A program made the translations under genes and the position numbers. From Sulfuricurvum sp. (GTDB lineage: Bacteria; Campylobacterota; Campylobacteria; Campylobacterales; Sulfurimonadaceae): DNA of 64,000 nucleotides. Position 1 is the stretch's first letter; every line of letters starts with the position of its first letter. A model generated the notes under the pieces. That model saw nothing but the letters and a program-made list of their open reading frames with translations. It ran no database searches and had not been told where the DNA came from. Location: contig NZ_JAUYFF010000005.1 in the NCBI RefSeq assembly GCF_030691015.1, forward strand, positions 1 to 64,000. Direction: 5' to 3'. Of this stretch, positions 13,334 to 36,377 are shown piece after piece.

Positions 13334-13860
13334 AATTCTTTACCCCTTTTCGGAAAAAATCGCCGTGGGTATTGCACTACAATGCCGGGAGTTGTAACGG
13401 CTGTGACATTGAAATCCTCGCTTCCCTCGCTCCCAAATACGATCTGGAACGTTTCGGGGTGATCAATACGGGAAATCCGAAGCAGTCCGATATTTTCCTC
13501 GTGACGGGTCCGGTGACCTATCGTTCCCGTGAGCGTCTCGTCGAGCTCTACTCCCAAATCCCTGAGCCTAAAGTGGTCGTGGCGGTCGGATCGTGCACGG
13601 CGACAGGGGGTGTGTTTCGGGGGATGTATAACGTCGAAGACGGGATCGATCGTTATATCCCCGTCGATGTTTATGTCCCCGGATGTGCCGCATCGCCGCA
13701 GCTGATTATTGATGCGTTGGTAAAAGGGTTAGAAGTGCTCGAAGCGAAAAGCAAAGAGATTGAAAAACCGTTCAAACTCTTCGGTGCAATCGAGACGATA
13801 CATAATAAACTCAGCCGCCTGAACATGGCAACAAAGGTGGAACCTCATGCGAAAGATTGA
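13330..13860 (+). CDS. echC: Ech-type hydrogenase small subunit (NuoB family)
   Basis: Small electron-transfer subunit of 176 residues with one 4Fe-4S cluster next to the NiFe site. Cysteines appear as SCNGCDIE, VGSCTATGG and VPGCAASP, the normal NuoB/EchC ligand set, so the proximal CxxC is intact here, unlike in the three other hydrogenase small subunits of this window. It overlaps its neighbours at both ends (ATGA with echB, 14 nt with echD). Confidence 0.9.
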   Translation: MKFFTPFRKKSPWVLHYNAGSCNGCDIEILASLAPKYDLERFGVINTGNPKQSDIFLVTGPVTYRSRERLVELYSQIPEPKVVVAVGSCTATGGVFRGMYNVEDGIDRYIPVDVYVPGCAASPQLIIDALVKGLEVLEAKSKEIEKPFKLFGAIETIHNKLSRLNMATKVEPHAKD

Positions 13861-14191
13861 AACGACACTCACGACGCTGTTGAGAGACATCGGAGCGTTT
13901 TACGAAGCGAAAAAATGGCATTTTCTGAGTGTCAACGGGATCGATTTGGGGGAGGGAAAAATTGAGCTCCAATGGATTTTTTCACAATATGGGGTAAAAG
14001 ATGAAGTAGTGATCTATTATGCCCTGAGCGATTATGAAACTCCTGTCCCCTCGATTGTCACTCTGATCCCCTCTGCATTTATGGGGGAGCGGGAAATCGT
14101 CGATATGTTCGGGCTTTCCGTCGATGGGGCGGAGAGCGGACTTTATCTTGATAAAGATTCACTGGCACATCCGCTTAGGGGGGAATCATGA
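13847..14191 (+). CDS. echD: Ech-type hydrogenase subunit (NuoC family)
   Basis: Protein of 114 residues corresponding to the 30-kDa NuoC-like subunit. The conserved end FMGEREIVDMFGLSVDG, with ERE and DMFG, is the family signature. It packs against the large subunit and carries no cofactor. It overlaps echC by 14 nt and echE by 4 nt, so it belongs to the coupled ech block. Confidence 0.87.
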   Translation: MRKIETTLTTLLRDIGAFYEAKKWHFLSVNGIDLGEGKIELQWIFSQYGVKDEVVIYYALSDYETPVPSIVTLIPSAFMGEREIVDMFGLSVDGAESGLYLDKDSLAHPLRGES

Positions 14192-15273
14192 AAAAAACGA
14201 TTCAAATCCCTTTGGGGTCACAGCATATTTCTCTGCTAGAGCCAATCCGTTTTAAATTTGAGTGTGAGAACGAAAAGATTATCGGGGTCGATGCCGATGT
14301 CGGATTCGTCCATCGCGGGGTGGAACTGGCGTGTACCCGTAGTTTTGAGTTCAAGCAGGTGGGGTATGTCGTTGCTCGTGTTTGCGGTCTCTGCGCTATT
14401 ACCCACTCCCTCTCGTATACGTTAGCTGTCGAAAAACTGCTGGGATACGTCGCCAATGATCGGATCAAATATCTGCGTATGCTGATGGTGGAGTTGGATC
14501 GTATCCATTCACATATGCTCTGTCTCGCTCATACGGCGGAGAATGCTGGATTTGAAGCTCTCTTTATGCAGATTATGGGGGATCGGGAACTGATTATGGA
14601 CGTTCAAGAGGCGATCAGCGGGAACCGTGTTCAGTTTGATTATATCTCCATCGGCGGGGTGAACCGTGATCTGACCCCCGAACTGGTGGCAATGATTCAT
14701 AAAAATCTCGGAGTACTCACCAGTAAAATTGATGCGCTGATCGGATTGTTTGATAACAACTGGTCGCTCTCGCTGAAATACAAAGGGGTAGGGGTGCTGA
14801 GGTTGGAAGATGCGTATACCTACAATGCGCTAGGACCGTTGGCTCGCGCGGCAGGGTTGGCGACCGATGTTCGTGCCGAAACGAGTGATTTTCCCTACGA
14901 AGATATAGGGTACAAGATGATCCTTGAATCTAGCGGAGACATCCATGCGCGCAATTTTCTCCGTCTTCGAGAGATTGTGAACTCGATAACAATGTGTCAA
15001 AATATTGTGAATAACCTCCCAGTAGGAGAGATTCAGGAAAAGGCAAAAGGGAAACCAAACGGTGAAGCGGTAGTTCGCGTCGAAGCCCCGCGCGGAGAGC
15101 TTTTCTATCTGGTACGGGGGAGCGGTCAGAATATGCTGGATCGTGTTCGGATCAAAACTCCGACCTTTTCGGCGATTCCGGCTATGATAGAGGTGTTTAA
15201 AGGCGCTGAGTATGCCGATGCACCTGCCATCCTCGCCTCGTTCGATCCGTGCATGTCGTGTACGGCGAAGTAG
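14188..15273 (+). CDS. echE: Ech-type [NiFe]-hydrogenase large subunit (NuoD family)
   Basis: Catalytic subunit of 361 residues in group 4. The NiFe ligands are present: RVCGLC (Cys66, Cys69) and DPCMSC (Cys355, Cys358), so this is a true hydrogenase rather than complex I NuoD. The protein ends three residues after the last Cys (TAK), with no C-terminal extension to cleave, so maturation should not need a protease. It is expected to exchange electrons between H2 and ferredoxin in the cytoplasm, coupled to ion flow through EchA/EchB. Confidence 0.92.
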   Translation: MKKTIQIPLGSQHISLLEPIRFKFECENEKIIGVDADVGFVHRGVELACTRSFEFKQVGYVVARVCGLCAITHSLSYTLAVEKLLGYVANDRIKYLRMLMVELDRIHSHMLCLAHTAENAGFEALFMQIMGDRELIMDVQEAISGNRVQFDYISIGGVNRDLTPELVAMIHKNLGVLTSKIDALIGLFDNNWSLSLKYKGVGVLRLEDAYTYNALGPLARAAGLATDVRAETSDFPYEDIGYKMILESSGDIHARNFLRLREIVNSITMCQNIVNNLPVGEIQEKAKGKPNGEAVVRVEAPRGELFYLVRGSGQNMLDRVRIKTPTFSAIPAMIEVFKGAEYADAPAILASFDPCMSCTAK

Positions 15274-15282
15274 GAGACTCAG

Positions 15283-15714
15283 ATGTTTAAATCGATGCTA
15301 GAGGCATTTTTGAACCTTTTTAGACCCATTCGTACACTCAAGTATCCCGCCGAAGAGATTGTTTTGCCGAGCGGGTATCGGGGATTGATCGAATACGGGA
15401 TAGATGCGTGTATCTTTTGTGATAAATGCGAGAAGGTGTGTCCTCCGGGAGCGATCCTCTTCTATCAAAATGAAGACGGGACGAAAACGTATCGCTATAA
15501 TCCGTGGCTCTGCATCTACTGCGGCGAATGTGTCCGTGCCTGCCCCAAACCCGAAGAGGCGTTGTGGCAAAGCGAGACAAAACAACTCAGTGCCCTTAAA
15601 GAAGAGGGGGCGAATGAGGGGTGGTTCGTCTGGGAAGAGGCGTGTAAACAAAGCCGAGAAGCGTACGCGACCGCCAAAAAATCGGCTAAAATTCAAAACA
15701 AGAGTGAGGAGTAA
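15283..15714 (+). CDS. echF: Ech-type hydrogenase ferredoxin subunit, 2x[4Fe-4S]
   Basis: Protein of 143 residues with two classical 4Fe-4S motifs, CIFCDKCEKVCP and CIYCGECVRACP, related to NuoI/EchF. It should pass electrons between ferredoxin and the EchC cluster. The gene is last in the EchA-F order and is followed after 3 nt by the fused flavoprotein-hydrogenase gene, so it might also serve that enzyme. The ribosome binding site is GGAGACTC. The C-terminal tail is Lys/Glu-rich. Confidence 0.88.
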   Translation: MFKSMLEAFLNLFRPIRTLKYPAEEIVLPSGYRGLIEYGIDACIFCDKCEKVCPPGAILFYQNEDGTKTYRYNPWLCIYCGECVRACPKPEEALWQSETKQLSALKEEGANEGWFVWEEACKQSREAYATAKKSAKIQNKSEE

Positions 15715-15717
15715 CGC

Positions 15718-18147
15718 ATGCGCATTGTTATCGTAGGAGGCGGAATTGCCGCTGTCTATATTGCCAATACCCTTATGGAGAGTGCTCCTGAATCTGAGAT
15801 TGTCATTGTCTCTGATGAAAAACACCCTCCGTATGATCGTATCCATCTGTGTAAGTTGGTAGAAGACTGCACATGTGTTGATTCGATTGAGCTGGAACTG
15901 CACCCGAAAGTGAAACTGGAACTGGATCAAAAAATCATCTCGATTGATCCCGCTCAAAAACGGGTTTTCAGTGAACATGCCGCATTTCACTACGATAAGC
16001 TCATTATCGCTACCGGATCGGTTCCCAAAACACTTTTTGACATTTCAGGGATTAAAAATGCGGCGACGTTTCGAAGTCAGAAGGATTGCGAAGCGATTGC
16101 GAAGGGGATGGTCGGAAAAAATGTGATCATCGTCGGGGCAGGGCCGATTGCGCTGGAATTGCTCGATACGTTGATGCGAAGCGATGCTCCGCAAAGCATT
16201 ACCCTTCTGGTACGCAAAAACTATCTCTACTCCGAAGTAATCAGCCGTGAGGGGCTAGAACTGATTCGGGGTATTTTTGAAGCGGATAGCCGTGTAAGTA
16301 TCCGATTCGGCGACCAAATCGTGGATAAAGAGGTTGAGGGAAATGTTATAACCAAAGTATTGACCAAGCAAGGGGAGATCGACAATCCGTTTATCATTTT
16401 CGGTGTCGGAATCGATCCCAATATCCCCTACGCGCGTGACCTCCTCGAATGTGACAAAGGTATTTTGGTAAATGAGAGGATGCGTACCTCGGATGAGAAT
16501 ATTTACTGCGTCGGCGAAGCGGCACAGTTACGTGAGGGGGGATTTATTGCCGGACGGGTCAAAGAGTGCACGATCCAAGCCGATGTCGCTATCGCGAATC
16601 TCCTAGGGACGGAGAGTAAAATATTTAAAGAAGAGGTCTCCATCGACGGACTCAAAGTGGGATCATTTTTGTTCGCCGATGTCACCGCGACCGATTTTAA
16701 CCCTAAAGATAGTGAGAATGAAACGATTTTGATCACGCATGGGGATCGTATCGATCAGTATATCGTCAATAATGACAGGCTGAAACGCTTTATCGGGATC
16801 AACACTAATATCGATCTTCTCGCCCTTAAACGTTTGATTGAAACCGATGCGCCGATTGATGCGGCGTATCTCTATTCGAACCGTTTAATGTCCGAATACG
16901 GGAAACTCGTCTGTAGTTGTGAGGGGGTGCATGAACTGGAGTTAGTCGATATTATCCGTGAGAATGCAGTGACGTCGTTCGCTGAGCTCAAAGAACACTC
17001 GAAAGCGGGACGTACCTGCGGACGATGCAAACAAGATATCTGCGCGATTATCAGTGCAACCCCTGTCGATCCTGCTGAAGCGGCACGGCTTAAACAAGAG
17101 AAGCTCGATGCGGCTGCGGCGGCGGAATTGGCAAAAGTGCGTGCACGAATCGATAAATACAATACCCTTCATCCGAAAAATCAGTTGAATCCTGAGAATT
17201 TCCATGAGGCGTTGGAATCGTTTGAGATGAGTCGTGAGTTTAACCGTTGGGTTTCGATGATCACGGCATCGATGCATCTGCATCCGCAGTTCGAAGGGGT
17301 CGTGGAAGAGGGGGTGACGCAACTCAACAAAATTCCGATCATCTGGCTCGAACTCTCTGATTGTACGGGTAATTCGGAAGCGTTTATCAAAACCTCCCAC
17401 CCCAAAGTGGACGATCTAATCCTCAAATACATTTCACTTGATTATCATGAGCTACTGATGGCGGCTTCGGGGGATCAATCGGAGTCCGCGCTGGAGAGTA
17501 TACTCCATAACGACAGCGGTAAATATGTCTTGATCGTGGAGGGGGCGGTTCCTCTAGGGATGGATGGAAAATTTTTGCGGATCGGACCGAAGGGTGAGAC
17601 GGGAGTCGATTTATTGCGTCGCGTCGCCAAAAATGCCGCAGCGGTGATCGCGGTGGGATCATGTGCCTATGATGGCGGTGTTGTCGCCGCCGCGCCTAAT
17701 CCGACGGGTGCCGTTGGTGTGGCGGAAGCGTTAGATCGTAGCGATATTATCAACCTCCCCGGTTGTCCGACCAATCCGATCAATATCGTCGGAACCCTAT
17801 TGCAGTACATTATGTTTGATGAGTTTCCGAAACTTGACAGTAAAAACCGTCCCGAATGGGCGTACGGCTTCCGCGTTCATGATAATTGCGAACGTCGAGG
17901 GCATTACGATGCCGATGAGTTTGTCCGTGAATGGGGCGATGAGGGGGCGAAGAAAGGGTGGTGCCTTTTTGAAATGGGGTGCAAAGGGCCATATGCCGAT
18001 CTCAACTGCTCACTCGTGAAATTCAACGAGGGGACGAGCTGGCCGGTACAGGCGGGGCATGGATGTTTCGGCTGCGGTCAGGGAAAAATCGCGTTTGATC
18101 AATATGCGAATAATCGTAAATTACCGGAGGGTGAAAATGAGCACTAA
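15718..18147 (+). CDS. fusion: FAD/NAD(P)H reductase - BFD-type [2Fe-2S] - [NiFe]-hydrogenase small subunit
   Basis: An 809-residue chimera. Residues 1-395 are an FAD-dependent pyridine-nucleotide reductase like the NirB N-terminal part: GGGIAAVYIA, a second dinucleotide fold IIVGAGPIALELL, and the FAD end IYCVGEAA. Residues 399-440 form a BFD-like 2Fe-2S domain (Cys399, 401, 434, 437). From about 539 follows a group 1 hydrogenase small subunit with SDCTGN (Cys549, Asn552 in place of the second proximal Cys), VGSC, PGCP, HDNC and GCFGC. The linker 505-540 resembles the HydA Tat signal but lacks RR. No C-terminal membrane anchor is present. Predicted: soluble cytoplasmic NAD(P)-linked hydrogenase with the next gene. 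The direction of the reaction is inferred. Confidence 0.88.
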   Translation: MRIVIVGGGIAAVYIANTLMESAPESEIVIVSDEKHPPYDRIHLCKLVEDCTCVDSIELELHPKVKLELDQKIISIDPAQKRVFSEHAAFHYDKLIIATGSVPKTLFDISGIKNAATFRSQKDCEAIAKGMVGKNVIIVGAGPIALELLDTLMRSDAPQSITLLVRKNYLYSEVISREGLELIRGIFEADSRVSIRFGDQIVDKEVEGNVITKVLTKQGEIDNPFIIFGVGIDPNIPYARDLLECDKGILVNERMRTSDENIYCVGEAAQLREGGFIAGRVKECTIQADVAIANLLGTESKIFKEEVSIDGLKVGSFLFADVTATDFNPKDSENETILITHGDRIDQYIVNNDRLKRFIGINTNIDLLALKRLIETDAPIDAAYLYSNRLMSEYGKLVCSCEGVHELELVDIIRENAVTSFAELKEHSKAGRTCGRCKQDICAIISATPVDPAEAARLKQEKLDAAAAAELAKVRARIDKYNTLHPKNQLNPENFHEALESFEMSREFNRWVSMITASMHLHPQFEGVVEEGVTQLNKIPIIWLELSDCTGNSEAFIKTSHPKVDDLILKYISLDYHELLMAASGDQSESALESILHNDSGKYVLIVEGAVPLGMDGKFLRIGPKGETGVDLLRRVAKNAAAVIAVGSCAYDGGVVAAAPNPTGAVGVAEALDRSDIINLPGCPTNPINIVGTLLQYIMFDEFPKLDSKNRPEWAYGFRVHDNCERRGHYDADEFVREWGDEGAKKGWCLFEMGCKGPYADLNCSLVKFNEGTSWPVQAGHGCFGCGQGKIAFDQYANNRKLPEGENEH

Positions 18148-19831
18148 AAAAATTGTAATTGATCCTATTACCCGTATCGAGGGGCATTTACGGATAGAGG
18201 TAGAGATCGATGAGAATAATGTCGTTACCGAGGCATGGGCTTCGGGACAGCTGTTTCGGGGGATCGAGACGATCTTAAAAGGGCGTGATCCTCGTGATTC
18301 GGGTTTGATCGCTCAGCGCATCTGCGGTGTCTGTACCAACGTCCATTATCGCGCTTCGATCAGTGCGGTGGAAGCGGCGTATGGGATCGAAATACCCCAT
18401 AATGCCGAGATTATCCGTAACCTCGTTACCCTCTCCTTGTTCGTCCAAGATCATATTGTCCACTATTATCACCTCCATTCACTCGATTTCGTCGATATCA
18501 CGAGCGCTTTGAGTGCCGATTGTGCACAAGCCGCCGAAGATGCGCAGATATGGTGTGAACACCCCTATCGCAACTCCGATGGGCATTTAGAAGCCATCAA
18601 AGAAAAGCTCGAAGGGTTTGTCAAAGCGGGGCGGTTGGGGCTCTTTGCGAACGGCTACTGGGGGCATGAGACCTATCGTCTAAGCCCAGAGGAGAATTTG
18701 GTTCATATGAACCACTATCTCGAAGCACTTCGGATACAGCGTGAACTCTCTAAAGCGGTAGCGATTTTTGCGGGGAAAACTCCCCACCCTCAAAATCTTG
18801 TCGTCGGAGGGGTGACAAGTGTTGCGGATATGCTCAATCCTCAACGCTTGAATGACTTTTTGTTTATCATTAAAGAGACGAGAGATTTTATCGAACGGGC
18901 GTATATCCCCGATATGCTGATGATCGTAAATGCTTACCGCGACTCGATTAAAGCGGGAGAAGGGCGAGCTGTCGGTAACTTTATGTGTTGCGGCGGATAC
19001 CGAGCAGGCAAAGAGCAGCAACTCTTTGAGAACGGTGTGATTAAGGGGCATAATTTTGAGAATATAGCGCCGTTTGATTCGAGCAAAATTACCGAAGAGG
19101 CGTCACGCTCGTGGTATGAGAATGATGCACCCCTCTCCCCGTATGAGGGGGAGACAACACCGTTTTATACGGATTTGAATGAGGACGGCTCTCTCAAAAC
19201 AGAGGGGAAATACACATGGATCAAAGCTCCGAGATATGAGGGTGAGGTGATGGAGGTCGGTCCGTTGGCGCGAATGATCGTCGGATACATCAAAAACTCT
19301 CCCGTTATCCGTCCTTATATGGAACGGTTTATGAAACGTTCCCATATGGAGTTGATTGATTTTTCTACCACAATCGGGCGTAATGCGGCGCGTGCGGTGG
19401 AAGCACAAATCTGCTGCGATTATCTGTTTGACACGATGAGTGATTTAATCGAAAATATCAAATACTACGATGAGACGACGTGGACGAAATACGTATTTGA
19501 AGAACTCCCGAGCGAGGCGAGGGGTGCGGGAATATTCGAAGTACCGCGCGGGGTATTGGGGCATTTTGTCCGAATCGAGGATGCGAAAATAGCCAACTAT
19601 CAGGCGGTCGTCCCGACAACATGGAATGCTTCACCCAAGGGAGCCAAAGAGGGGCGCGGAGCGTATGAGGAGTCGTTGATCGGGATTAAACTTGCCGATC
19701 CATCCGCACCGTTAGAAGTATTACGCGCGGTTCACTCGTTCGATCCGTGTCTTGCGTGTGCGGTACATGTGATCGATGCAACGGGGAAAGAGTTAGCACA
19801 CTATAAAGTTGCAAGTGAGTGCATGCTTTAA
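18137..19831 (+). CDS. [NiFe]-hydrogenase large subunit (group 1-like), partner of the fusion protein
   Basis: Catalytic subunit of 564 residues. NiFe ligands are RICGVC (Cys63, Cys66) and DPCLAC (Cys538, Cys541), followed by His544 and a 20-residue C-terminal extension to be removed by a maturation protease. The N-terminus DPITRIEGHLRIE closely matches HydB of the same window, so the two are paralogues. The ATG at 18137 has GGAGG seven bases upstream; earlier in-frame Met codons lie inside the fusion gene and lack homology. It overlaps the fusion gene by 11 nt and ends the ech operon. Confidence 0.92.
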   Translation: MSTKKIVIDPITRIEGHLRIEVEIDENNVVTEAWASGQLFRGIETILKGRDPRDSGLIAQRICGVCTNVHYRASISAVEAAYGIEIPHNAEIIRNLVTLSLFVQDHIVHYYHLHSLDFVDITSALSADCAQAAEDAQIWCEHPYRNSDGHLEAIKEKLEGFVKAGRLGLFANGYWGHETYRLSPEENLVHMNHYLEALRIQRELSKAVAIFAGKTPHPQNLVVGGVTSVADMLNPQRLNDFLFIIKETRDFIERAYIPDMLMIVNAYRDSIKAGEGRAVGNFMCCGGYRAGKEQQLFENGVIKGHNFENIAPFDSSKITEEASRSWYENDAPLSPYEGETTPFYTDLNEDGSLKTEGKYTWIKAPRYEGEVMEVGPLARMIVGYIKNSPVIRPYMERFMKRSHMELIDFSTTIGRNAARAVEAQICCDYLFDTMSDLIENIKYYDETTWTKYVFEELPSEARGAGIFEVPRGVLGHFVRIEDAKIANYQAVVPTTWNASPKGAKEGRGAYEESLIGIKLADPSAPLEVLRAVHSFDPCLACAVHVIDATGKELAHYKVASECML

Positions 19832-19851: not shown

Positions 19852-20241
19852 CTATTGTAAGTTGGTCTGTGGACTCACTTCAGTAATTGCGAGGGATACT
19901 GTAATCTTTTTCATTATTTGTTTGAACTCTATTTCTAATGTTAGCAACACTTCATCCAGATGATCTCTCATAGGTTCCCTTAGTAGGAATTCTAAAGTTT
20001 CTGCATTATGAAAAAGCGTATTGGCACCGAAATTACCTGCCAATCCTTTGATGGTATGAGATTCTCTGATCGCAGTCTCTAAATCATTTAAAGCTATTGC
20101 CGTTTTGATGCGGGTAATTGCATCGGTTTGTGTTTCGACAAATCGTCCTAAAAGTTTGCGAAGCAATTTTTCATTTCCTGCCACTCTACCCAAAGCACTT
20201 TTAATATCGATCCCTTCTATATAAAGCGTATTATCCATCAT
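19852..20241 (-). CDS. Hpt (histidine phosphotransfer) domain protein
   Basis: Stand-alone Hpt protein of 129 residues, a helical bundle with the phospho-His in RESHTIKGLAGNFGA (the HxxKG signature). It should relay phosphate in a multistep phosphorelay. It lies 18 nt behind a receiver gene in the same orientation, so the two are likely partners. No kinase is adjacent. Start ATG at 20241 has AAGGAGAAT upstream; a second ATG follows directly. Confidence 0.85.
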   Translation of the reverse strand: MMDNTLYIEGIDIKSALGRVAGNEKLLRKLLGRFVETQTDAITRIKTAIALNDLETAIRESHTIKGLAGNFGANTLFHNAETLEFLLREPMRDHLDEVLLTLEIEFKQIMKKITVSLAITEVSPQTNLQ

Positions 20242-20259
20242 ATTCTCCTTGTCATAAAT

Positions 20260-20673
20260 TTATTTTGCAATTACATCCCAACGTTTGATAAAGTCAGAAA
20301 TTTTACAAAGGTTATGGACTCTATAGATTAGCTCATCGGGATCAAACGGTTTGGTTAGATAGTCATCAGCACCAGAATTCATAGCTTTTATGACGGACTC
20401 TTTGTCAGTTGATGCAGTGAGTGCCATTATGGGGATAAGTTTGGTAAAGCGCTGTGACTTGATTGTTGCTATCGCTAAAAACCCGTCATTATCGGGCATA
20501 ACAAGATCCATGAGAATGACGCTAATTTTCTCTTTGTACTCTAGTGACATATTAATCGCTGTTTTTGCATCACCTGTTTTTAGTACGGTATAACCGAAAT
20601 CTTCGAGTACGCTTCCGATCATCTCACGATTGATCTCTTCATCATCAACAATGAGAATAAGTTTTGACACCAT
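20260..20673 (-). CDS. single-domain response regulator (CheY-like receiver)
   Basis: Receiver domain of 137 residues with DDEE acidic pocket, phospho-acceptor Asp in VILMDLVMP, Thr in ALTAST and Lys in LTKPFDP. No output domain follows beyond a 15-residue tail. It is encoded upstream of the Hpt gene and divergently from the TetR gene. The shared 169-bp gap contains the TGAATGA-type palindrome at 20750-20763, so its transcription might be linked to the TetR protein. Confidence 0.88.
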   Translation of the reverse strand: MVSKLILIVDDEEINREMIGSVLEDFGYTVLKTGDAKTAINMSLEYKEKISVILMDLVMPDNDGFLAIATIKSQRFTKLIPIMALTASTDKESVIKAMNSGADDYLTKPFDPDELIYRVHNLCKISDFIKRWDVIAK

Positions 20674-20749: not shown

Positions 20750-20763
20750 TGAACATTCATTCA
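20750..20763 (-). promoter_or_regulatory. candidate operator upstream of the TetR gene
   Basis: On the minus strand TGAATGAATGTTCA followed by CAAA. It shares TGAATGA, the TTCA block and the trailing AAA with sites at hydA (24999-25012) and the nickel transporter (34872-34885). It sits in the divergent gap between the receiver and TetR genes, as expected for an autoregulated repressor. Confidence 0.5.
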
Positions 20764-20805
20764 GGATAGTTTATGAAAGAGTGAACTTTAACTAGGTGTA
20801 TTTGC

Positions 20806-20811
20806 TATAAT
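20806..20811 (+). promoter_or_regulatory. candidate -10 box for the TetR gene
   Basis: TATAAT with TTTGC before it, 31 nt upstream of the TTG start at 20843. No good -35. Confidence 0.4.
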
Positions 20812-20842
20812 TATGAAAACGAATGTATAGTAGGTAACAACA

Positions 20843-21436
20843 TTGGCACGTCCCACAAAAGAAGAACGCAAAGTTTCGATTATGACAAAAGCATTGGAGC
20901 TATTCTCCAAAGAGGGATTTTATCAAACGACGATGCCCTCTATCGCTGAAAAAATCGGAATGAGTGTCGGGAATCTTTATAACTATTTTACCTCCAAAGA
21001 GATGCTTGCCAAAGATCTCATCCTCTACATCGCCAATATTCTAGGTGATGAGATCCGTAAAATCAATGAGAGTCCGATAAGTACACAGGAAAAGATTGAA
21101 GCGATCGTCCACATGTATTTCCGTATCGCCAAAGATCGACCTGAGACGATCGAGTATTTTTTACGGGTCTACCTCTCCAATCGGGAAGTATTTCAGAACT
21201 GCTGTGAGGGGATGATCTGCGTCTCCGCTTTTGTAACGGAAATGATGATCTTCTTCGAAGAGGGTGTACGATGCGGTGAGTTGAGAGATCAGGATTTTTT
21301 CAGTGCGTTTGGTCTTTTCATGGGATATTTGGGGGGGATGGTGTTTATCAACGGTGAAAATATTCTCCCTAAACCGCTGGAGAGTTACGAGCATACCATT
21401 GCCGAAAATATCTACTATGCCCTCAAATCCCGCTAA
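20843..21436 (+). CDS. TetR/AcrR-family transcriptional regulator
   Basis: DNA-binding repressor of 197 residues. The N-terminal helix-turn-helix is typical: ALELFSKEGFYQTTMPSIAEKIGMSVGNLYNYFTSKE. The ligand domain has a Cys cluster NCCEGMIC near residues 118-124 that could sense redox or metal, but this is speculative. The TTG start at 20843 has AGGTAACAAC upstream and gives the usual MARPTKEER N-terminus. It overlaps the following hydrogenase small-subunit gene by 20 nt, so its synthesis is coupled to that enzyme. It is a candidate regulator of hydrogenase genes through the shared palindromes. Confidence 0.9.
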   Translation: MARPTKEERKVSIMTKALELFSKEGFYQTTMPSIAEKIGMSVGNLYNYFTSKEMLAKDLILYIANILGDEIRKINESPISTQEKIEAIVHMYFRIAKDRPETIEYFLRVYLSNREVFQNCCEGMICVSAFVTEMMIFFEEGVRCGELRDQDFFSAFGLFMGYLGGMVFINGENILPKPLESYEHTIAENIYYALKSR

Positions 21437-22313
21437 ACTCCGCGTCATTTGGCTACAGGGGATCACCTGCAACGGTAACACCCACTCTTTTTTAAACGAT
21501 CCTTCGTTGGGAACACTTTTGGATTCGGTTGAATTTCTCCATCACCCGCTCCTCCCCTGTACTTTTACTTTGCAACAGTTGGTCAAAAAACTTCCCAAGT
21601 CCGATATCCTTATTTTCGAGGGAGCCTACAGTGCCTCTTTCGAGCGTGCCGGAATGGCGATGGAGAGCCTTTTGATGACACTGGCATTGAAAACGAAACA
21701 TATTATCTCGATGGGGAGCTGTGCTAGTTTTGGCGGAATCTTTAAAGAGAATGATCCTGAACATATCAGCGGGATAGTGTTTGATAAAGAAAACGATAGT
21801 GGCCCTTTGCGGGATATGCGTAAAAAAGTGATTACCCTCAGCGGTTGTCCCGCCCATCCCAAATGGCTCAGTTTTACCATCGATATGATACGTTTTGATA
21901 AACCTATTGCGGTCGATGAATATCGTCGTCCGAAGGAATTATATGCCTATCTCGTCCATAACGGATGTCTGCGGAATGAGTATTTTGAATGGAAAGTGGA
22001 CAGCGAACATTTCGGCACCAAAGAGGGGTGTCTGTTTTACGCCCAAGGGTGCCAAGGTCCCTTTACCCACGGCAGCTGCAATAAGATTCTTTGGAATGAG
22101 GTGAGTTCCAAAACCCGCTCAGGAACACCGTGTGTCGGATGTACCGAACCCACATTTCCCAAAAGGGAGCTTTTCACGACAAAAACGTACATGTCGATCC
22201 CCTCGGAGATGCCGATAGGAATACCGAAGCGGAGCTATCTGGCATTAGCGGGGGCGGCAAAATCGTTCCATATCAAACGGCTGGAAGAGAGGTTGATTGA
22301 TGATCACACATGA
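21417..22313 (+). CDS. group 2 (cytoplasmic) [NiFe]-hydrogenase small subunit
   Basis: Small subunit of 298 residues without Tat signal or membrane anchor, so cytoplasmic. Cluster residues: TCNGN (Cys18, Asn21), MGSCASFGG, LSGCPAHP, HNGC, GCLFYAQGC and PCVGCTEPTFP. The pattern CxGN and SSKTRSG resembles cyanobacterial-type HupS (group 2), in which Asn at this position is known. The ATG at 21417 lies inside the end of the TetR gene; longer in-frame starts read through TetR codons and lack homology. It overlaps its large subunit by 14 nt. Confidence 0.9.
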   Translation: MPSNPAKLRVIWLQGITCNGNTHSFLNDPSLGTLLDSVEFLHHPLLPCTFTLQQLVKKLPKSDILIFEGAYSASFERAGMAMESLLMTLALKTKHIISMGSCASFGGIFKENDPEHISGIVFDKENDSGPLRDMRKKVITLSGCPAHPKWLSFTIDMIRFDKPIAVDEYRRPKELYAYLVHNGCLRNEYFEWKVDSEHFGTKEGCLFYAQGCQGPFTHGSCNKILWNEVSSKTRSGTPCVGCTEPTFPKRELFTTKTYMSIPSEMPIGIPKRSYLALAGAAKSFHIKRLEERLIDDHT

Positions 22314-23595
22314 ACTGATTGAGCGGATCGAGGGGGAAGCGGTACTCGATTTTCAAACCGATAAAAGCGGAGCGGTTCAGGATGCGGCTATCCGATTCTT
22401 GCATTTTCGGGGGATGGAGGCGATTCTGGAAGGTCGCAATGCTCTCGATGCTCTGGTGATCACCCCCCGCGTCTGCGGTATCTGCGGTCATTCGCATCTG
22501 ATCGCGACGGTCAAGATGATTGAAGATGCCTACCGTAATGCGGGAGTAGCGATCCGTATCAGTGATAAAGCAACCGCGATTCGTCAAATCACCCTCTCAT
22601 GCGAACTGATCCAAAACCATATCAAATGGCTCTATCTTGTGATGCTCCATGAGAGCGGCAAGATGATGGGGGAAGAACCCACCGTTGCCCTTAAAGCACT
22701 CTATGTTTCGTCGCAGGTTAATCAGTTGTGCGCCCTTTTCAGCGGGCAGTGGCCTCATAGTTCGTATGCACTCCCAGGAGGAGTGAGCTGTGATCCGACC
22801 CACATCGAAGTAATGCAGGCGCTGAAAATTCTCTCCGATGTGGAGCGGTTTATCGAGGATGAGGTACTGGGGTGCACTCCTGAGGTGTTTGAGCAAGCGA
22901 TGAGGGATAATGAAGTTCTGAGTCTTAGCGGGGATTTTGGAACCGTATTGCGTAATTTTGAGCGGTTGAAAGTATTGGATACGGGGAAAAGTCACGGCCG
23001 ATTTTTGGTTCTGGGGGATAAGTCGGTAGCGATGGCAAACGGCATCCGAAACAGTGCCGACTTCGCGCTGGTTTCGGAAGATGATTCGCAAACCTTTGAA
23101 CACGGCGGGAAAACGTATGCGAAAAATGCCCTCTACAACGGAGAATTTTACGAGGGGGGGCCTTTGGCACGAGCGCTGGTGCAGGAACGCACAGGAATCA
23201 CTGATCTGTACCGCACCTATGGCGATAGTGCAATAATACGCTTAAGCGCCCGAGTCGCGGAAATGGTATCGTTATGCGCTCAGGTACGACAGCTCTTGAC
23301 ATCTCTTGATCTCTCTCAGCCTTCTTTTATACCCCCTCCCGCTATCGAGAGTATCAGCGCTGAGGGGATCGGGATTATTGAAGCCCCGCGCGGATCGCTG
23401 ATTCACCGTGCAACCATCGAAAAAGGGAAAATAGTATCGTATTCGATTATCACCCCGACGCAGTGGAATCTCGGTAACGGAACAGCCTCAAATCTAGGAA
23501 TAGCGCAAAAGGCGATGATCGGAGCCGAATCGATAGCCAAAGCGTCGCTGATCTTTCGCACCTTTGATGTCTGCTCGGTGTGTACGACGCATTAA
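22300..23595 (+). CDS. group 2 [NiFe]-hydrogenase large subunit without C-terminal extension
   Basis: Catalytic subunit of 431 residues, shorter than the group 1 proteins. NiFe ligands are RVCGIC (Cys59, Cys62) and DVCSVC (Cys425, Cys428), with Val in place of the usual Pro before the third Cys. The chain ends exactly at the His after the motif (CTTH), so there is nothing for a maturation protease to remove, as in H2-sensing HupV/HoxC. The ATG at 22300 has GAGAGG upstream. Together with TetR it may form an H2-sensing module; an energy-conserving uptake role is the alternative. Confidence 0.9.
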   Translation: MITHELIERIEGEAVLDFQTDKSGAVQDAAIRFLHFRGMEAILEGRNALDALVITPRVCGICGHSHLIATVKMIEDAYRNAGVAIRISDKATAIRQITLSCELIQNHIKWLYLVMLHESGKMMGEEPTVALKALYVSSQVNQLCALFSGQWPHSSYALPGGVSCDPTHIEVMQALKILSDVERFIEDEVLGCTPEVFEQAMRDNEVLSLSGDFGTVLRNFERLKVLDTGKSHGRFLVLGDKSVAMANGIRNSADFALVSEDDSQTFEHGGKTYAKNALYNGEFYEGGPLARALVQERTGITDLYRTYGDSAIIRLSARVAEMVSLCAQVRQLLTSLDLSQPSFIPPPAIESISAEGIGIIEAPRGSLIHRATIEKGKIVSYSIITPTQWNLGNGTASNLGIAQKAMIGAESIAKASLIFRTFDVCSVCTTH

Positions 23596-24990: not shown

Positions 24991-24996
24991 TACAAT
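24991..24996 (+). promoter_or_regulatory. candidate -10 box of hydABC
   Basis: TACAAT, 36 nt before the hydA ATG. Its predicted transcription start near 25003 lies inside the palindrome at 24999-25012. Confidence 0.5.
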
Positions 24997-24998
24997 GG

Positions 24999-25012
24999 TG
25001 AATGACCATTCA
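24999..25012 (+). promoter_or_regulatory. candidate operator at the hydA start site
   Basis: Perfect palindrome TGAATG-AC-CATTCA followed by TAAAA. It covers the predicted transcription start and shares its layout with the sites at 34872-34885 and 20750-20763. An overlapping inverted repeat AATGGT-N5-ACCATT spans 24994-25010. Confidence 0.6.
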
Positions 25013-25032: not shown

Positions 25033-26271
25033 ATGTCTGATAAAGTAGAAGCAGTTAAAAAACTGTTTACTTCCCAAAGTTCGCGAGTCGAAACGAACAA
25101 GGGTGATACGTATTACCAGGAGTTGTTCGACAAGTGTGAGGCGAGATTGAACGAGATGCGCTCACATCAGCCGGCTAATAAGCTCGACTTTACCGATCTT
25201 TTAGAAGATAACGGGATTGATAGACGAGAGTTTATGAAATGGGCGAGTGCAACAACAGCGATGTTAATGCTTCCCCCTATGTTTACTCCGCTCGTTGCCG
25301 ATGCGGCAGTGTTGATGAACCGAGCACCGGTTATTTGGCTTGAACTCCAAGACTGTGCCGGTAACTCCGAAGCCCTTTTGCGCGCAGACGGGCCAAAAAT
25401 TGATGAGATTGTGTTGGACATTATCTCATTAGAATTTCATGAGACTCTTCAAGCCGCATCAGGACATCAAGCTGAAAAACAGCTCGAAGAAGCGATGGAA
25501 CATTTCAAAGGGAAATATCTTCTTTTCGTTGAAGGTGCGATTCCGATGGCAATGGACGGTCAATACGGGACTATCGGTGCTAAGGGTGAAACATTCCATG
25601 ATCACTTAGTACGCTGTGCCGAAAATGCTGCGGCAGTTGTCGCGGTAGGAAGTTGTGCAACGTTCGGAGGGATTCCTGCTGCTGCTCCGAATCCTACCGG
25701 TGCGGTTGGGGTTATGGATGTTGTTAAAAACAAACCTCTTATCAATATCCCGGCATGTCCGGCCAATCCGGCCAATATGGTCGGAGTCATTTTGCATTAT
25801 GTTTTGACAGGACAGGTTCCTGAACTTGATTCACTTCTTCGTCCTAAATTTGCATTCGGCTATCGTATCCACGATAACTGCGAACGCCGCGCACACTTTG
25901 ATGCGGGTGAGTATGTTGAAGAGTGGGGCGATGTCGGAGCTCAAAATAACTTCTGTCTTTACAAAATGGGATGTAAAGGTCCTATGACATTTAACAACTG
26001 TTCAATCGTCCGCTATAACGAAGGGGTTAACTGGCCTATCGGAGTAGGACGCGGTTGTATCGGATGTTCGGAACCCGATTTCTGGGATAAATATGCGTAT
26101 GAGCGTCCGATGGCGGATGCAAAAATTAAAGCACCTACGGGTGGTGTCGAGAAAACCGTTGACGAATTTGGTTTGGGCATGTTGACCGCAGCCGGTATCG
26201 GTATTGCGATCCATGCAGCAGCCAGCACCGTAGCAGGTAAACGAGAAAATTCAGGAGAGAGCCATGAGTAA
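25033..26271 (+). CDS. hydA: respiratory [NiFe]-hydrogenase small subunit HydA, Tat-exported
   Basis: Group 1 small subunit of 412 residues. A 63-residue leader precedes the Tat motif DRREFMKW (Arg64, Arg65) and a hydrophobic stretch. The core has QDCAGN (Cys108, with Asn111 where the second proximal Cys normally is), VGSC, PACP, HDNC, the NNCS Cys and GCIGCSEPDFW. A C-terminal helix (GLGMLTAAGIGIAIHAAAS) anchors it in the membrane. It passes electrons from the NiFe site to cytochrome b HydC and on to the quinone pool. Ribosome binding site GAGGGAG. HydB overlaps by 8 nt. Confidence 0.93.
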   Translation: MSDKVEAVKKLFTSQSSRVETNKGDTYYQELFDKCEARLNEMRSHQPANKLDFTDLLEDNGIDRREFMKWASATTAMLMLPPMFTPLVADAAVLMNRAPVIWLELQDCAGNSEALLRADGPKIDEIVLDIISLEFHETLQAASGHQAEKQLEEAMEHFKGKYLLFVEGAIPMAMDGQYGTIGAKGETFHDHLVRCAENAAAVVAVGSCATFGGIPAAAPNPTGAVGVMDVVKNKPLINIPACPANPANMVGVILHYVLTGQVPELDSLLRPKFAFGYRIHDNCERRAHFDAGEYVEEWGDVGAQNNFCLYKMGCKGPMTFNNCSIVRYNEGVNWPIGVGRGCIGCSEPDFWDKYAYERPMADAKIKAPTGGVEKTVDEFGLGMLTAAGIGIAIHAAASTVAGKRENSGESHE

Positions 26272-28039
26272 GCACATTGTAGTTGACCCTATTACCCGTA
26301 TCGAGGGACATTTACGTATCGAAGCGGTCATTGATGAGAATAACACGATTGTAGATGCCTACAGTGCATCGACTATGTTCCGTGGGATAGAGACAATTTT
26401 ACAGGGACGCGATCCTCGTGACTGCGGACTTTTAGCAATGCGTATTTGCGGTGTATGTACCGGAACCCATTATCAACGCTCTATTGAAGCGGTAGAGGAT
26501 GCGTTTAATATTACGATCCCTAAAAATGCCCGTATCGTTCGTAACTTGATTCAAGGTGCATTGTATATGCATGACCATGTGGTCCATTTCTATCACCTTC
26601 ATGCGCTTGATTTCGTTGATGTTGTTTCAGCACTTTCGGCTGATCCTGCTAAAACTGCGGCAGAAGCACGTAAATGGGCGAGTGTTGCCGGTGAATCTCC
26701 GTTTATTGACGGTGAGAGCGAATTTAAAGCGATTCAAGATCGTGTGGCAAAATTTGTCAAACAAGGGCGTTTAGGGATTTTCGGAAACGGCTATTGGGGC
26801 AATCCGCATTATAAATTGACTCCGGAACAAAACCTTATCGGTGTTGCCCACTATTTGCAAGCATTGGATATCCAGCGCGATATGGCAAAAATGCAGGCGA
26901 TTTTCGGCGGTAAAAATCCGCATCCACAATCGATTGTTGTCGGTGGTGTAACGTGTGTTCAAGATATTCAAAATCCTGCTCGTATTGCGTTGTTCAAATC
27001 ACTTCTTCTAGAAGGGACAAAGTTTATCAAACAAGCGTATTTACCGGATGTTTACATGGCCGGCACAATGTATGCGGGCGAAGCGACAGATTCTAAAGCG
27101 ACGTTCAGCGAGCTTGTCGGAGGCAAAGGGGTCGGCGGAACCGGTGGAGGACTCTTGAACTTCATGAGTTACGGTGATTTCCGTCTCGATGATACCGGTT
27201 TTTACAAATCAGCCCTCCTTTTCCCTAAAGGGGTTGTTATGGGCGGAGACATCTCTAAAGTCCTTCCGTTGGATGAAGAGAAAATCGCGGAAGACGTGAC
27301 CCATGCATGGTACAAAGGGGATAAACCTCTTCACCCGTATGAGGGGCAAACGATCCCAGAATATACCGGTTTGGATAAACGTGCAGACGGTATCGCGTAT
27401 CTTAAAACCAAAGAGAAATACAGCTGGATCAAATCTCCGATTTACAACGATGCTCGTGTTGAAGTCGGGCCGTTGGCTCGTATGGTGATCGGTGTGGCGG
27501 CAAAAGATGAACGCATTACTAAATACGTGACCAACTTCCTTAAACGGGGAAATCTTCCGGTTACGGTATTGTTTAGTACGGTTGGACGTACTGCCGCTCG
27601 TGCTATCGAGACGGAATTGATGGCGGATGTTATGCTAGAATGGATCGACGAACTCGCTAAAAATGTTCTCACTGGCGATAAGAGTACGTGGACGGAATTT
27701 GATTTTGATGAAGTGAGTGTGAGTGCAAAAGGACGCGGTATGGCGGAAGCTCCGCGTGGAGCACTCGGACATTGGGTGAGCATTGCAGATGGAAAAGTCG
27801 TTAACTACCAAGCGATTGTCCCATCAACATGGAATGCGGCTCCTCGTGATTATAAAAATCGTATGGGAGCATACGAAGCAAGTTTGATCGGAACCAAAGT
27901 GGCCAATCCTGAGCAACCGTTGGAAATTATCCGTACCATTCACAGTTTTGACCCTTGTATCGCATGTGCGGTTCACGTCGTCGATACCAAAGGTAAAGAG
28001 CTTGCTGTTTACAAAGTAGATAGCTCTTGCAGTATCTAA
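26264..28039 (+). CDS. hydB: respiratory [NiFe]-hydrogenase large subunit HydB
   Basis: Catalytic subunit of 591 residues. NiFe ligands are RICGVC (Cys62, Cys65) and DPCIAC (Cys565, Cys568), then His571 and a 20-residue tail removed by a protease in maturation. It is co-exported to the periplasm with HydA and oxidises H2 for respiration. The N-terminal block DPITRIEGHLRIE and many other segments match the large subunit at 18137-19831. The gene follows hydA with an 8-nt overlap and precedes hydC by 10 nt. Confidence 0.95.
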   Translation: MSKHIVVDPITRIEGHLRIEAVIDENNTIVDAYSASTMFRGIETILQGRDPRDCGLLAMRICGVCTGTHYQRSIEAVEDAFNITIPKNARIVRNLIQGALYMHDHVVHFYHLHALDFVDVVSALSADPAKTAAEARKWASVAGESPFIDGESEFKAIQDRVAKFVKQGRLGIFGNGYWGNPHYKLTPEQNLIGVAHYLQALDIQRDMAKMQAIFGGKNPHPQSIVVGGVTCVQDIQNPARIALFKSLLLEGTKFIKQAYLPDVYMAGTMYAGEATDSKATFSELVGGKGVGGTGGGLLNFMSYGDFRLDDTGFYKSALLFPKGVVMGGDISKVLPLDEEKIAEDVTHAWYKGDKPLHPYEGQTIPEYTGLDKRADGIAYLKTKEKYSWIKSPIYNDARVEVGPLARMVIGVAAKDERITKYVTNFLKRGNLPVTVLFSTVGRTAARAIETELMADVMLEWIDELAKNVLTGDKSTWTEFDFDEVSVSAKGRGMAEAPRGALGHWVSIADGKVVNYQAIVPSTWNAAPRDYKNRMGAYEASLIGTKVANPEQPLEIIRTIHSFDPCIACAVHVVDTKGKELAVYKVDSSCSI

Positions 28040-28049
28040 GGAGAGAATA

Positions 28050-28766
28050 ATGAAACAGGGGTACACACAAGTCAAACGTATGACACCTGCAATGCGCATC
28101 ATCCATTGGGTGAATGCGATTTGTATGATCGGTGCCGTCGTGACGGGTCTTTATATCGGACATCCGTATTATCAGACATTTATGGCTGATGGTGCCGTTG
28201 ATAAATACGTCATGGCGTGGAATCGTTACGGACATTTTATTATTGCGATTATTTTCGATGTAACATCGGTTATTATCGCTTATCTCTATTTTTTCAGCCG
28301 TTTTGAAAAACCGTATAAGAAATTGGTTCCGAACACTCAGAACATTACCGAATTTAAAGCGGTATTGGTTAATTTGCTAACGTTAAACCGTAAAAAAGAG
28401 TTTGATTCATCTCATGCGGACAGTTTCAACACCGTCTATTTTACAGTTTTTCATTTGCTGTTGATTTGGATGCTTTTAACCGGACTGCAAATGTACGTAC
28501 ATGGATTGGGATCAGGGCTTAGCTCTATCGGTGCATGGTGGCCATGGATGTTGCATTTGACAACCGATTGGACGATCTGGATCTGTGGCGGAACACTTAT
28601 GGATGTTCGAATTTCGCATCATTTTACGATGTGGTTGATTCTCTGCTGGGTAGTTTTTCATATCTATTATCAAGTATGGAGAACTATTTTTTGGAAAGAG
28701 GCGGATATTGCTATTGTTATCGGCGGCTCTAAATTTGTCAAAGACGATTCACTAAAAAGTGAATAG
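28050..28766 (+). CDS. hydC: hydrogenase b-type cytochrome HydC
   Basis: Membrane cytochrome b of 238 residues with four hydrophobic segments. Histidines in RIIHWVNAI, RYGHFIIAI, FHLLLIWML and HHFTMWLILCWVVFHIY are the likely ligands for two haems. It takes electrons from HydA and reduces menaquinone. It is the third gene of hydABC, with AAGGAGAG as ribosome binding site. A hairpin follows before the next gene. Confidence 0.92.
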   Translation: MKQGYTQVKRMTPAMRIIHWVNAICMIGAVVTGLYIGHPYYQTFMADGAVDKYVMAWNRYGHFIIAIIFDVTSVIIAYLYFFSRFEKPYKKLVPNTQNITEFKAVLVNLLTLNRKKEFDSSHADSFNTVYFTVFHLLLIWMLLTGLQMYVHGLGSGLSSIGAWWPWMLHLTTDWTIWICGGTLMDVRISHHFTMWLILCWVVFHIYYQVWRTIFWKEADIAIVIGGSKFVKDDSLKSE

Positions 28767-34871: not shown

Positions 34872-34885
34872 TGAATGATGATTCA
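34872..34885 (+). promoter_or_regulatory. candidate operator of the nickel transporter/hyp operon
   Basis: TGAATGATGATTCA followed by TAAAA, nearly the same as the hydA site (12 of 14 bases plus the TAAAA tail). It lies between the -10 box and the ribosome binding site, so a bound repressor could block initiation. Confidence 0.6.
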
Positions 34886-34900
34886 TAAAAGGGAATAAAC

Positions 34901-35542
34901 ATGGAAATCGGATTGATGATTATTTTTTGGTACGGAATATTACACGCTTTCGGACCTGACCATTTAACAGCCATAGCTGATTTTTCGATCGGAAAAGAGG
35001 CAAAAAAAACATTTATGATTGTGAGCGCCTTTGCGGTGGGACATGGACTGATGCTTTTTATGTTTGCCAAGCTGCTTCAATATTTTTCTATACCTGAGGG
35101 CGTGATGGCGTATGGAGATGTCATCGCTTCCAGTGTGATAGTATTTATAGGACTCTATCTTCTGTATATGGTCTACCGAAACAAAATCCATTTGCATTCA
35201 CATGTACACAATCAAAAAAAGCACGTTCATATCTGGTTCGGCAATGAACATGAACACAAATCTTCCGGCGGTAGCGGATCAGCATTTAGTGTCGGTGTCT
35301 TGATGGGGATAGGCGGGGTGCGCGGAATGTTGGTAACGCTTGGAATGATGCAGGGGCAGAGTGTTGATGTGTCGATGATTCTTGCCTTCATTTTAGGTGT
35401 TATGGTCGTATTTTTGAGTTTTGGATGGGTCATAATGTGGATCAATAAAGATATACTCACCAATATCAAAAATGTACGTCGAGCCTTTGCTACGGTGGGA
35501 GTTATTTCTGTCCTCGTAGGCGGAAATATGCTTTTGGCATAA
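34901..35542 (+). CDS. nickel/cobalt transporter (NicO/HupE-like)
   Basis: Membrane protein of 213 residues with six hydrophobic segments. The metal signature HAFGPDHLTAI in the first segment and the AVGHGLMLF block resemble NiCoT/NicO permeases. A cytoplasmic or periplasmic His-rich loop (HLHSHVHNQKKHVHIWFGNEHEH) would bind metal. It stands first in the hypBCDE operon, so it most likely supplies nickel for hydrogenase maturation. Transcription starts over a palindrome shared with hydA. Confidence 0.82.
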   Translation: MEIGLMIIFWYGILHAFGPDHLTAIADFSIGKEAKKTFMIVSAFAVGHGLMLFMFAKLLQYFSIPEGVMAYGDVIASSVIVFIGLYLLYMVYRNKIHLHSHVHNQKKHVHIWFGNEHEHKSSGGSGSAFSVGVLMGIGGVRGMLVTLGMMQGQSVDVSMILAFILGVMVVFLSFGWVIMWINKDILTNIKNVRRAFATVGVISVLVGGNMLLA

Positions 35543-35576: not shown

Positions 35577-36377
35577 ATGTGTAAAGATTGCGGATGTTCC
35601 ATTACGGATCACGATCATCACCACGACCACGACACGCATCATCATGATCACGGAGATCATGACCATCACTCCCATACGCATCATGCGGCGCATGAAACAC
35701 TGCATCATAATCCGCAGTTGAACGATTCTAAAACGATTGCGGTCATCAAAAAGATTTTGGATAAAAACGATCAGGAAGCGCACCATAACCGCGAACATTT
35801 TAATGAGCACGGGGTATTAGCGATAAACCTTATGAGCTCACCGGGAAGCGGAAAAACAACCCTTTTGGAGAAAATGGCAGATTTGGCTCCGTTTAAATAC
35901 GGGGTGATTGAGGGGGATTTGGAAACCTCACGCGATGCCGATCGCCTTATCGCCAAAGGGATCAGTGCGGTACAGATTCAGACGGGAAGCGCGTGTCATC
36001 TGGACGCGTTTATGGTTCATAAAGGATTGCATGATCTGCCGTTGGCTCCTTTGGATGTCTGTTTTATCGAAAATGTCGGAAATCTCGTCTGTCCGGCGAG
36101 CTACGATGTGGGATCACATTTGAATATCGTCCTCGTCTCTATCCCGGAGGGGGAAGATAAGATCGCTAAATATCCGGTGATGTTCCGTTGTGCTGATCTG
36201 ATTCTTATCACAAAAACCGATCTCCTCCCTTACTTTCAATACGATATCGAACGTGAAAAAGCCGAAGCGCGAAAGATCAAACCGAACGTCGATATTTTGG
36301 AAGTGAACATCAATGATGAAGCGTCGATCAAAAGAGTGATCGAGTGGATTGAATTTAAACGAAAGATGAGAGCCTAA
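35577..36377 (+). CDS. hypB: hydrogenase nickel incorporation GTPase HypB
   Basis: GTPase of 266 residues that hands nickel to the large subunit together with HypA. The first 60 residues hold the CxxCGC nickel site (MCKDCGCS) and a very His-rich stretch (DHDHHHDHDTHHHDHGDHDHH type) for nickel storage. Then come the P-loop SSPGSGKTTLLEK, ETSRDADR, and the NKxD-like TKTDLLP. It is behind the nickel transporter and 3 nt before hypC. Confidence 0.96.
   Translation: MCKDCGCSITDHDHHHDHDTHHHDHGDHDHHSHTHHAAHETLHHNPQLNDSKTIAVIKKILDKNDQEAHHNREHFNEHGVLAINLMSSPGSGKTTLLEKMADLAPFKYGVIEGDLETSRDADRLIAKGISAVQIQTGSACHLDAFMVHKGLHDLPLAPLDVCFIENVGNLVCPASYDVGSHLNIVLVSIPEGEDKIAKYPVMFRCADLILITKTDLLPYFQYDIEREKAEARKIKPNVDILEVNINDEASIKRVIEWIEFKRKMRA

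Follow-up and report, generated by a model that had tools for sequence, protein, structure and literature searches.

Several parallels for a hydrogenase coupled to a transcriptional regulator are offered by previously described group 2 NiFe hydrogenases. The best described are the HupUV/HoxBC enzymes (group 2b; e.g., Cupriavidus necator), soluble two-subunit NiFe hydrogenases that lack both a Tat signal and a C-terminal extension, adjoin their own transcriptional regulator, and act through a histidine kinase (HoxJ/HupT) and an NtrC-type activator (HoxA). In the HydDB classification, the 2b enzymes are kinase-linked sensors and the 2c enzymes are putatively linked to diguanylate cyclases, while the role of the 2d enzymes is unresolved between the supply of reductant and regulation (PMC5037454). 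The last group includes the “HupSL” enzymes of Sulfurospirillum, Sulfurimonas, and Nautilia, which are Aquificae-type according to the literature, the relation to hydrogenase III of Aquifex being taken here from PMC2628731. In the Campylobacterota of hydrothermal vents, group 2 enzymes have been called H2 sensing or ferredoxin reducing without a test of either (PMC2628731, PMC7952632), studies of Sulfurimonas call the role of group 2d open (PMC7952632), and almost nothing was known about the control of hydrogenase genes in the phylum (PMC5357620). For Sulfurospirillum multivorans, which has the arrangement TetR-hupSL-hydABC, a single published sentence mentions that a TetR gene lies ahead of hupSL (PMC5357620). 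In the open-access journal literature searched, we found neither the operator nor the regulon described, nor the phylum-wide co-occurrence or the cysteine pair, all of which are detailed below.

The window analyzed here is the whole of a 64,000-nucleotide stretch of DNA from Sulfuricurvum sp. (NZ_JAUYFF010000005.1, positions 1 to 64,000), in which a gene for a TetR-family repressor (hereinafter TetR) runs into those for the small (S) and large (L) subunits of a group 2-type NiFe hydrogenase, the same genes as the HupSL pair named above (Table 1). An earlier note on this DNA had claimed a 20-nt overlap between TetR and S, and the open reading frames bear this out to the nucleotide (21417-21436); S and L overlap by a further 14 nt, and the start residue of TetR is the same in its homologs. 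The region upstream is also rich in hydrogenase genes. A cluster encoding a group 4 (Ech/Hyc-like) membrane hydrogenase (10752-15714) directly precedes a gene for an 809-aa fusion protein (15718-18147) that combines a NirB-like FAD/NAD reductase, a BFD [2Fe-2S] domain, and a NiFe hydrogenase small subunit, with the corresponding large subunit encoded by the next gene (18131-19831). In all probability, this fusion enzyme (15718-19831) is soluble and linked to NAD(P); there are thus four NiFe hydrogenases within one 18-kb stretch. The stand-alone receiver and Hpt genes, whose participation had also been suggested, neighbor TetR at just 3 of the roughly 120 loci and are both found at the same place in only two other examined genomes (L138 and L140); hence, we reject them as part of the module.

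Table 1. Positions, in window coordinates, of the TetR-hydrogenase genes, their candidate operators, and their putative targets
Feature	Coordinates	Strand	Basis or remark
Stand-alone receiver and Hpt genes	19852-20673	-	Flanked by the fusion hydrogenase genes and TetR
Candidate operator TGAACATTCATTCA	20750..20763	.	Upstream of the TetR-S-L operon; pattern search and relatives
TetR-family repressor, 197 aa, TTG start	20843..21436	+	PF00440, E 7e-14; orthologs in 114 of 397 genomes; predicted TetR fold
Codons of the invariant Cys121-x4-Cys126 of TetR	21203..21220	+	100% of 120 TetR orthologs
Group 2-type NiFe hydrogenase small subunit (S), cytoplasmic	21417..22313	+	ATG start; PF01058 and PF14720
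NiFe hydrogenase large subunit (L), group 2 type, no C-terminal extension	22300..23595	+	PF00374
Candidate operator TGAATGACCATTCA	24999..25012	.	Upstream of hydA; pattern search and relatives
hydA, small subunit of group 1b uptake hydrogenase, putative target	25033..26271	+	TIGR00391, 435 bits
hydB, uptake hydrogenase large subunit, putative target operon	26264..28039	+	PF00374, 706 bits
hydC, cytochrome b subunit, putative target operon	28050..28766	+	ORF listing
Candidate operator TGAATGATGATTCA	34872..34885	.	15 bp before the nickel transporter gene; exact in 17 of 17 relatives
NicO/UreH-like nickel transporter (nicO), putative target	34901..35542	+	ORF listing; position relative to hypB; family from sequence
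hypB, downstream in the nickel/hyp operon	35577..36377	+	ORF listing; sequence

To trace this arrangement, we considered 397 Campylobacterota genomes that are at least 90% complete, with orthologs of TetR accepted at E values up to 1e-40. TetR is present in 114 and L in 113 of these; 112 genomes have both, 2 have TetR alone, 1 has L alone at a point where the contig ends, and 282 have neither (Fisher test, 4e-96, the genomes not being statistically independent). Gene neighborhoods, which the earlier note had proposed to compare among relatives, were read as 20-kb regions from 120 genomes: the order TetR-S-L, with the genes overlapping or abutting, recurs in about 115 loci, and hydA follows S-L within 3 kb in 101 of 114. 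The suggestion that TetR is the coupled partner of the group 2 hydrogenase therefore holds in the genetic sense, the partnership being near-obligate across the phylum. In contrast, hydABC is present in 366 of the 397 genomes, mostly without TetR. As S-L almost never occurs without TetR, S-L appears to depend on TetR more than the reverse.

The exceptions to this linkage are few. Apparent instances of S-L without TetR are contig edges or have TetR elsewhere in the genome, the sole exception being the MAG L273, which counts against a module of this kind. One Campylobacterales MAG (L231, 1-1709) has a HipA-like gene in place of TetR and S upstream of an intact L, with TetR located elsewhere in the same genome. 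TetR is kept without S-L in four genomes, which counts against S-L as its input: two of these (G189 and G388) have retained both TetR and the operator at hydA described below, and in the other two (G019 and G034) neither S-L nor hydA was found. Of the three proteins, TetR has diverged least (mean pairwise identity of 62%, against 52% for S and 45% for L), and the best 80 of 509 S-L matches are all from Campylobacterota. The carriers include Sulfurovum mangrovi ST1-3 and Sulfurimonas paralvinellae GO25. In the latter (L211; NZ_CP041407.1), the whole TetR-S-L-hydABC set is found on a 49.8-kb plasmid beside an integrase gene, which suggests that the set can move as a unit.

The probable targets of TetR are pointed to by a 14-bp palindrome with the consensus TGAAYNNNNRTTCA, found upstream of the TetR operon, hydABC, and the nickel transporter/hypB operon. 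A similar palindrome had been reported upstream of TetR; it is indeed present there (20750-20763), as well as before hydA and the nickel/hyp operon. The consensus occurs 13 times in the 2.33-Mb genome of this organism, as opposed to 3 times for the backward control; 3 of the 13 sites belong to this cluster (20750, 24999, and 34872), and several of the 10 outside it lie inside coding regions. A TGAA-N6-TTCA palindrome was also recognized by eye beside the −10 hexamers in the TetR upstream regions of relatives. The site TGAATGACCATTCA begins 2 nt past a −10-like hexamer (TACAAT, 24991-24996) and lies 20 bp before the start of hydA. Across hydA promoters, the most frequent spacing puts the first nucleotide of the operator about 2 nt past a TATAAT-like hexamer. 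The operator overlaps the presumed transcription start, a geometry typical of repressors.

The position of the palindrome follows the presence of TetR. In loci that carry TetR, the 150 bp preceding hydA contain an exact operator at 85 of 110 promoters and one with at most a single mismatch at 107 of 110 (0.3 and 4.3 expected), whereas the 25 readable hydA promoters from genomes lacking TetR yield no exact operator and one with a single mismatch at most, at a noncanonical position; this evidence, like that for the regulon as a whole, is comparative and drawn from genomes that are not statistically independent. However, the 25 promoters include genera shared with TetR carriers (g1, g4, g9, g23, and g26), and so the contrast does not merely reflect deep phylogeny. 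Two Sulfuricurvum genomes lacking TetR, one of which (G021) is also among the 25, have no operator near hydA. Upstream of nicO, the operator is exact in all 17 TetR loci, and a comparison by TetR status recovers it at 4 of 4 nicO promoters with TetR versus 0 of 5 without. The upstream region of TetR itself has an exact site in 12 of 120 cases and a one-mismatch site in 24 of 120 (0.2 and 3.5 expected), while the control promoters of hypF, hydC, and hypD in TetR-carrying loci showed no exact match. Where hydA is unlinked to TetR, G110 and G370 display an exact operator at the canonical distance; overall, such unlinked copies in TetR-carrying genomes have an exact operator in 4 of 12 cases, most of the rest being additional paralogs. 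The operator pattern is rare genome-wide (0 to 9 per genome), and in one genome (G039) the only two sites are those at nicO and hydA. The number of TGAATNNNNATTCA sites in a genome does not distinguish genomes with TetR from those without it, indicating that the signal lies in position rather than number. Since the operator at hydA and nicO tracks the presence of TetR, we propose, on these comparative sequence grounds, that TetR very probably binds the palindrome and represses an H2 uptake and nickel regulon. Elsewhere in the genome of this organism, an exact operator precedes the gene for a cysteine synthase by 35 bp (L168; G000:C17:266858), and the orphan TetR of G019 (L152) adjoins cysH/cysDN/sulfite reductase-like genes, raising the possibility of a link to sulfur assimilation.

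The AlphaFold model of TetR (pLDDT 85.8) matches 3pas_A with a Z score of 20.0 over 191 residues (rmsd 2.3), although most of its sequence matches in the PDB cover only the N-terminal half. It shares with FadR and HapR/SmcR the TetR fold and the HTH, and its putative palindromic operator overlaps the promoter as theirs do, but it differs from repressors of this type in having an invariant C-x4-C motif and a near-obligate hydrogenase partner. The motif is formed by Cys121 and Cys126, and a C-x4-C is also present in all 71 TetRs from named contigs; the neighboring Cys120 and Cys144 are not conserved among the 120 orthologs. Residues 114 to 120 (pLDDT below 50) and the loop bearing the pair are poorly predicted, yet this stretch is among the better-conserved parts of the protein, which suggests a cofactor or a partner. 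The Cys121-x4-Cys126 pair could plausibly constitute a redox or Fe-S switch. It would be attractive to suppose that electrons move from the distal cluster to a dithiol or to a bridging Fe-S cluster. Paralogous TetRs (L319, L320, L321, and L322) possess a slightly shifted C-x4-C without S-L; they adjoin group 4 hydrogenase/hypA, molybdate transport, selD, or formate dehydrogenase-like genes, and several have TGAATATTCATTCA or a similar site near their own start. These might belong to a wider family of redox-responsive TetRs. Their existence weakens the case for the cysteine pair as a unique signature of coupling to S-L: it is no proof of such coupling and could be a general redox or metal switch.

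The hydrogenase itself combines intact catalytic features with several that are reminiscent of the known sensors. S begins with MPSNPAKLRVIW, a start conserved in relatives, with no Tat signal. Its nine cluster cysteines are each conserved in at least 99% of orthologs, with C-x-x-N at the proximal site, and the NiFe cysteines of L (C59, C62, C425, and C428) are invariant. The earlier note had observed that L ends at the His after the NiFe motif; this is the case (...FDVCSVCTTH), and the stop falls 3 residues after the last Cys in all 115 of 115 orthologs. HoxC ends at the same place (...FDPCMVCTVH), whereas the HydB of this organism and a Huc-type enzyme have C-terminal extensions. Together with the overlap and gene order kept in about 115 loci, the missing extension indicates that these features are not due to chance. 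Ile62 and Phe110 of HoxC are bulky residues of the gas channel. The Ile, part of a CGIC motif that HoxC shares with L, is conserved in L orthologs but is also found in Huc; the position of Phe110 is occupied by V, T, S, or F, and its lack of conservation may count against the sensor reading.

S-L further resembles HoxBC/HupUV in being clustered with a nickel transporter (L210). Nevertheless, its neighbor is a TetR in place of the kinase and activator, its large subunit is only about 26% identical to HoxC, and its proximal motif is mostly C-x-x-N rather than C-x-x-C. Accordingly, we do not place S-L in group 2b and retain HupUV/HoxBC as an analogy. The best PDB match of both subunits is Huc of mycobacteria (group 2a; 7utd/7uur), which is about 29% identical to L and has the same C-x-x-N proximal and CGIC motifs, but has a maturation protease gene alongside and no TetR. 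No electron acceptor gene was seen linked to S-L, and no gene for a ferredoxin or NAD partner was seen to travel with it. Sulfurimonas denitrificans cultures growing on H2 contained S-L transcripts, yet H2 uptake activity was detected in the membrane fraction and not in the soluble one (PMC4149538); all four qPCR primers published in that study match L073, establishing that it dealt with the same locus. The absence of an extension and of soluble uptake activity fits a sensor. Against this, H2 makes little difference to the level of hydB transcription in S. multivorans, in which hardly any hupL transcript is made; the authors of that study remarked that the organism might lack an H2 sensor (PMC5357620). 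Weighing these points, we infer that the odds that S-L is the H2-sensing input of TetR are about even or slightly better.

As to the module in its general form, our judgment leans narrowly toward TetR-S-L being a phylum-wide regulatory module of Campylobacterota, with TetR repressing from the palindromes and S-L as the likely H2 input. Mechanistically, a TetR dimer would bind TGAATNNNNATTCA palindromes and thus repress hydABC, the nickel transporter/hyp operon, and often its own promoter; the palindromes directly follow the −10 element at hydABC, precede the nickel/hyp operon, and often lie near the TetR promoter. The soluble, unprocessed S-L would be its most likely input: H2 might react at the NiFe site and its electrons pass down the intact Fe-S chain of S, and contact or electron transfer, for which the Cys121/Cys126 loop is a plausible site, could then convey the state of S-L to TetR, upon which the operators would be released. 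The net output would be a one-component repressor in place of a histidine kinase. In its most specific version, S-L is the H2 receptor for TetR and passes electrons to the invariant dithiol or to an inter-subunit Fe-S cluster, so that TetR leaves its operators and hydABC and nickel uptake are switched on without a kinase across Campylobacterota; we advance this only tentatively, as an account that could well be wrong. Of the earlier idea of an H2-sensing module, then, the TetR partnership and the shared palindrome are supported and the missing extension fits a sensor, while the H2-independent transcription of hydB in S. multivorans tells against the sensing step. The phrase “one-component output” suits the way in which the genes are arranged, but as a mechanism it is only a proposal.

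The principal competing explanation is that S-L is a metabolic cytoplasmic hydrogenase furnishing low-potential reductant (ferredoxin/NADH) for the reductive TCA cycle, with TetR as a small-molecule-responsive repressor of hydrogen genes that counts S-L among its targets. Such a role has been proposed in the literature (PMC2628731, PMC4149538), as it has for Aquifex hydrogenase III, and HydDB allows that group 2d “may generate reductant for carbon fixation or have a regulatory role” (PMC5037454). It would account for the intact active-site ligands and full Fe-S chain as well as for the four genomes in which TetR persists without S-L, and it agrees with the reading of TetR as a possible hupSL repressor by the authors of the S. 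multivorans study (PMC5357620). However, an enzyme of this kind sits poorly with the lack of soluble H2 uptake activity in S. denitrificans (PMC4149538), of a cotraveling ferredoxin or NAD partner gene, and of a C-terminal extension in the 115 orthologs; moreover, S-L is almost never seen without TetR, unlike the enzyme encoded by hydABC. We consider this explanation rather unlikely, though it deserves to be taken seriously.

Less probable still is the alternative that Cys121/Cys126 make TetR a direct sensor of redox state, oxidants, or metal (nickel or an Fe-S cluster) with no need for an H2 signal, S-L being either regulated by TetR or a buffer for it. The invariance of C-x4-C in 120 TetRs within a conserved but poorly predicted loop would be in keeping with such a sensor, as would the nickel transporter in the predicted regulon and the paralogs that have a similar pair, and in some cases the same palindrome, beside group 4 hydrogenase, molybdate transport, or selD genes with no S-L. 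Yet it does not account for a linkage of TetR to S-L that is almost absolute or for the overlap of their genes, and cysteine pairs alone are no evidence of a cofactor. Finally, the palindrome could be the site of another regulator, with TetR merely co-inherited, an idea prompted by the minority of TetR operons that have a clear site. This we regard as very improbable because the palindrome has the geometry of a TetR operator and comes and goes with TetR within several genera, and because two genomes without S-L (G189 and G388) still have both TetR and the site.

If the proposal of H2 sensing by S-L is correct, it would explain how H2 oxidation is controlled in a dominant group of bacteria of vents and sulfidic sediments, and it would provide a compact, kinase-free genetic switch responsive to H2. 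Even without the H2 step, the regulon that connects TetR, its operator, hydABC, and nickel uptake constitutes a concrete, testable prediction.
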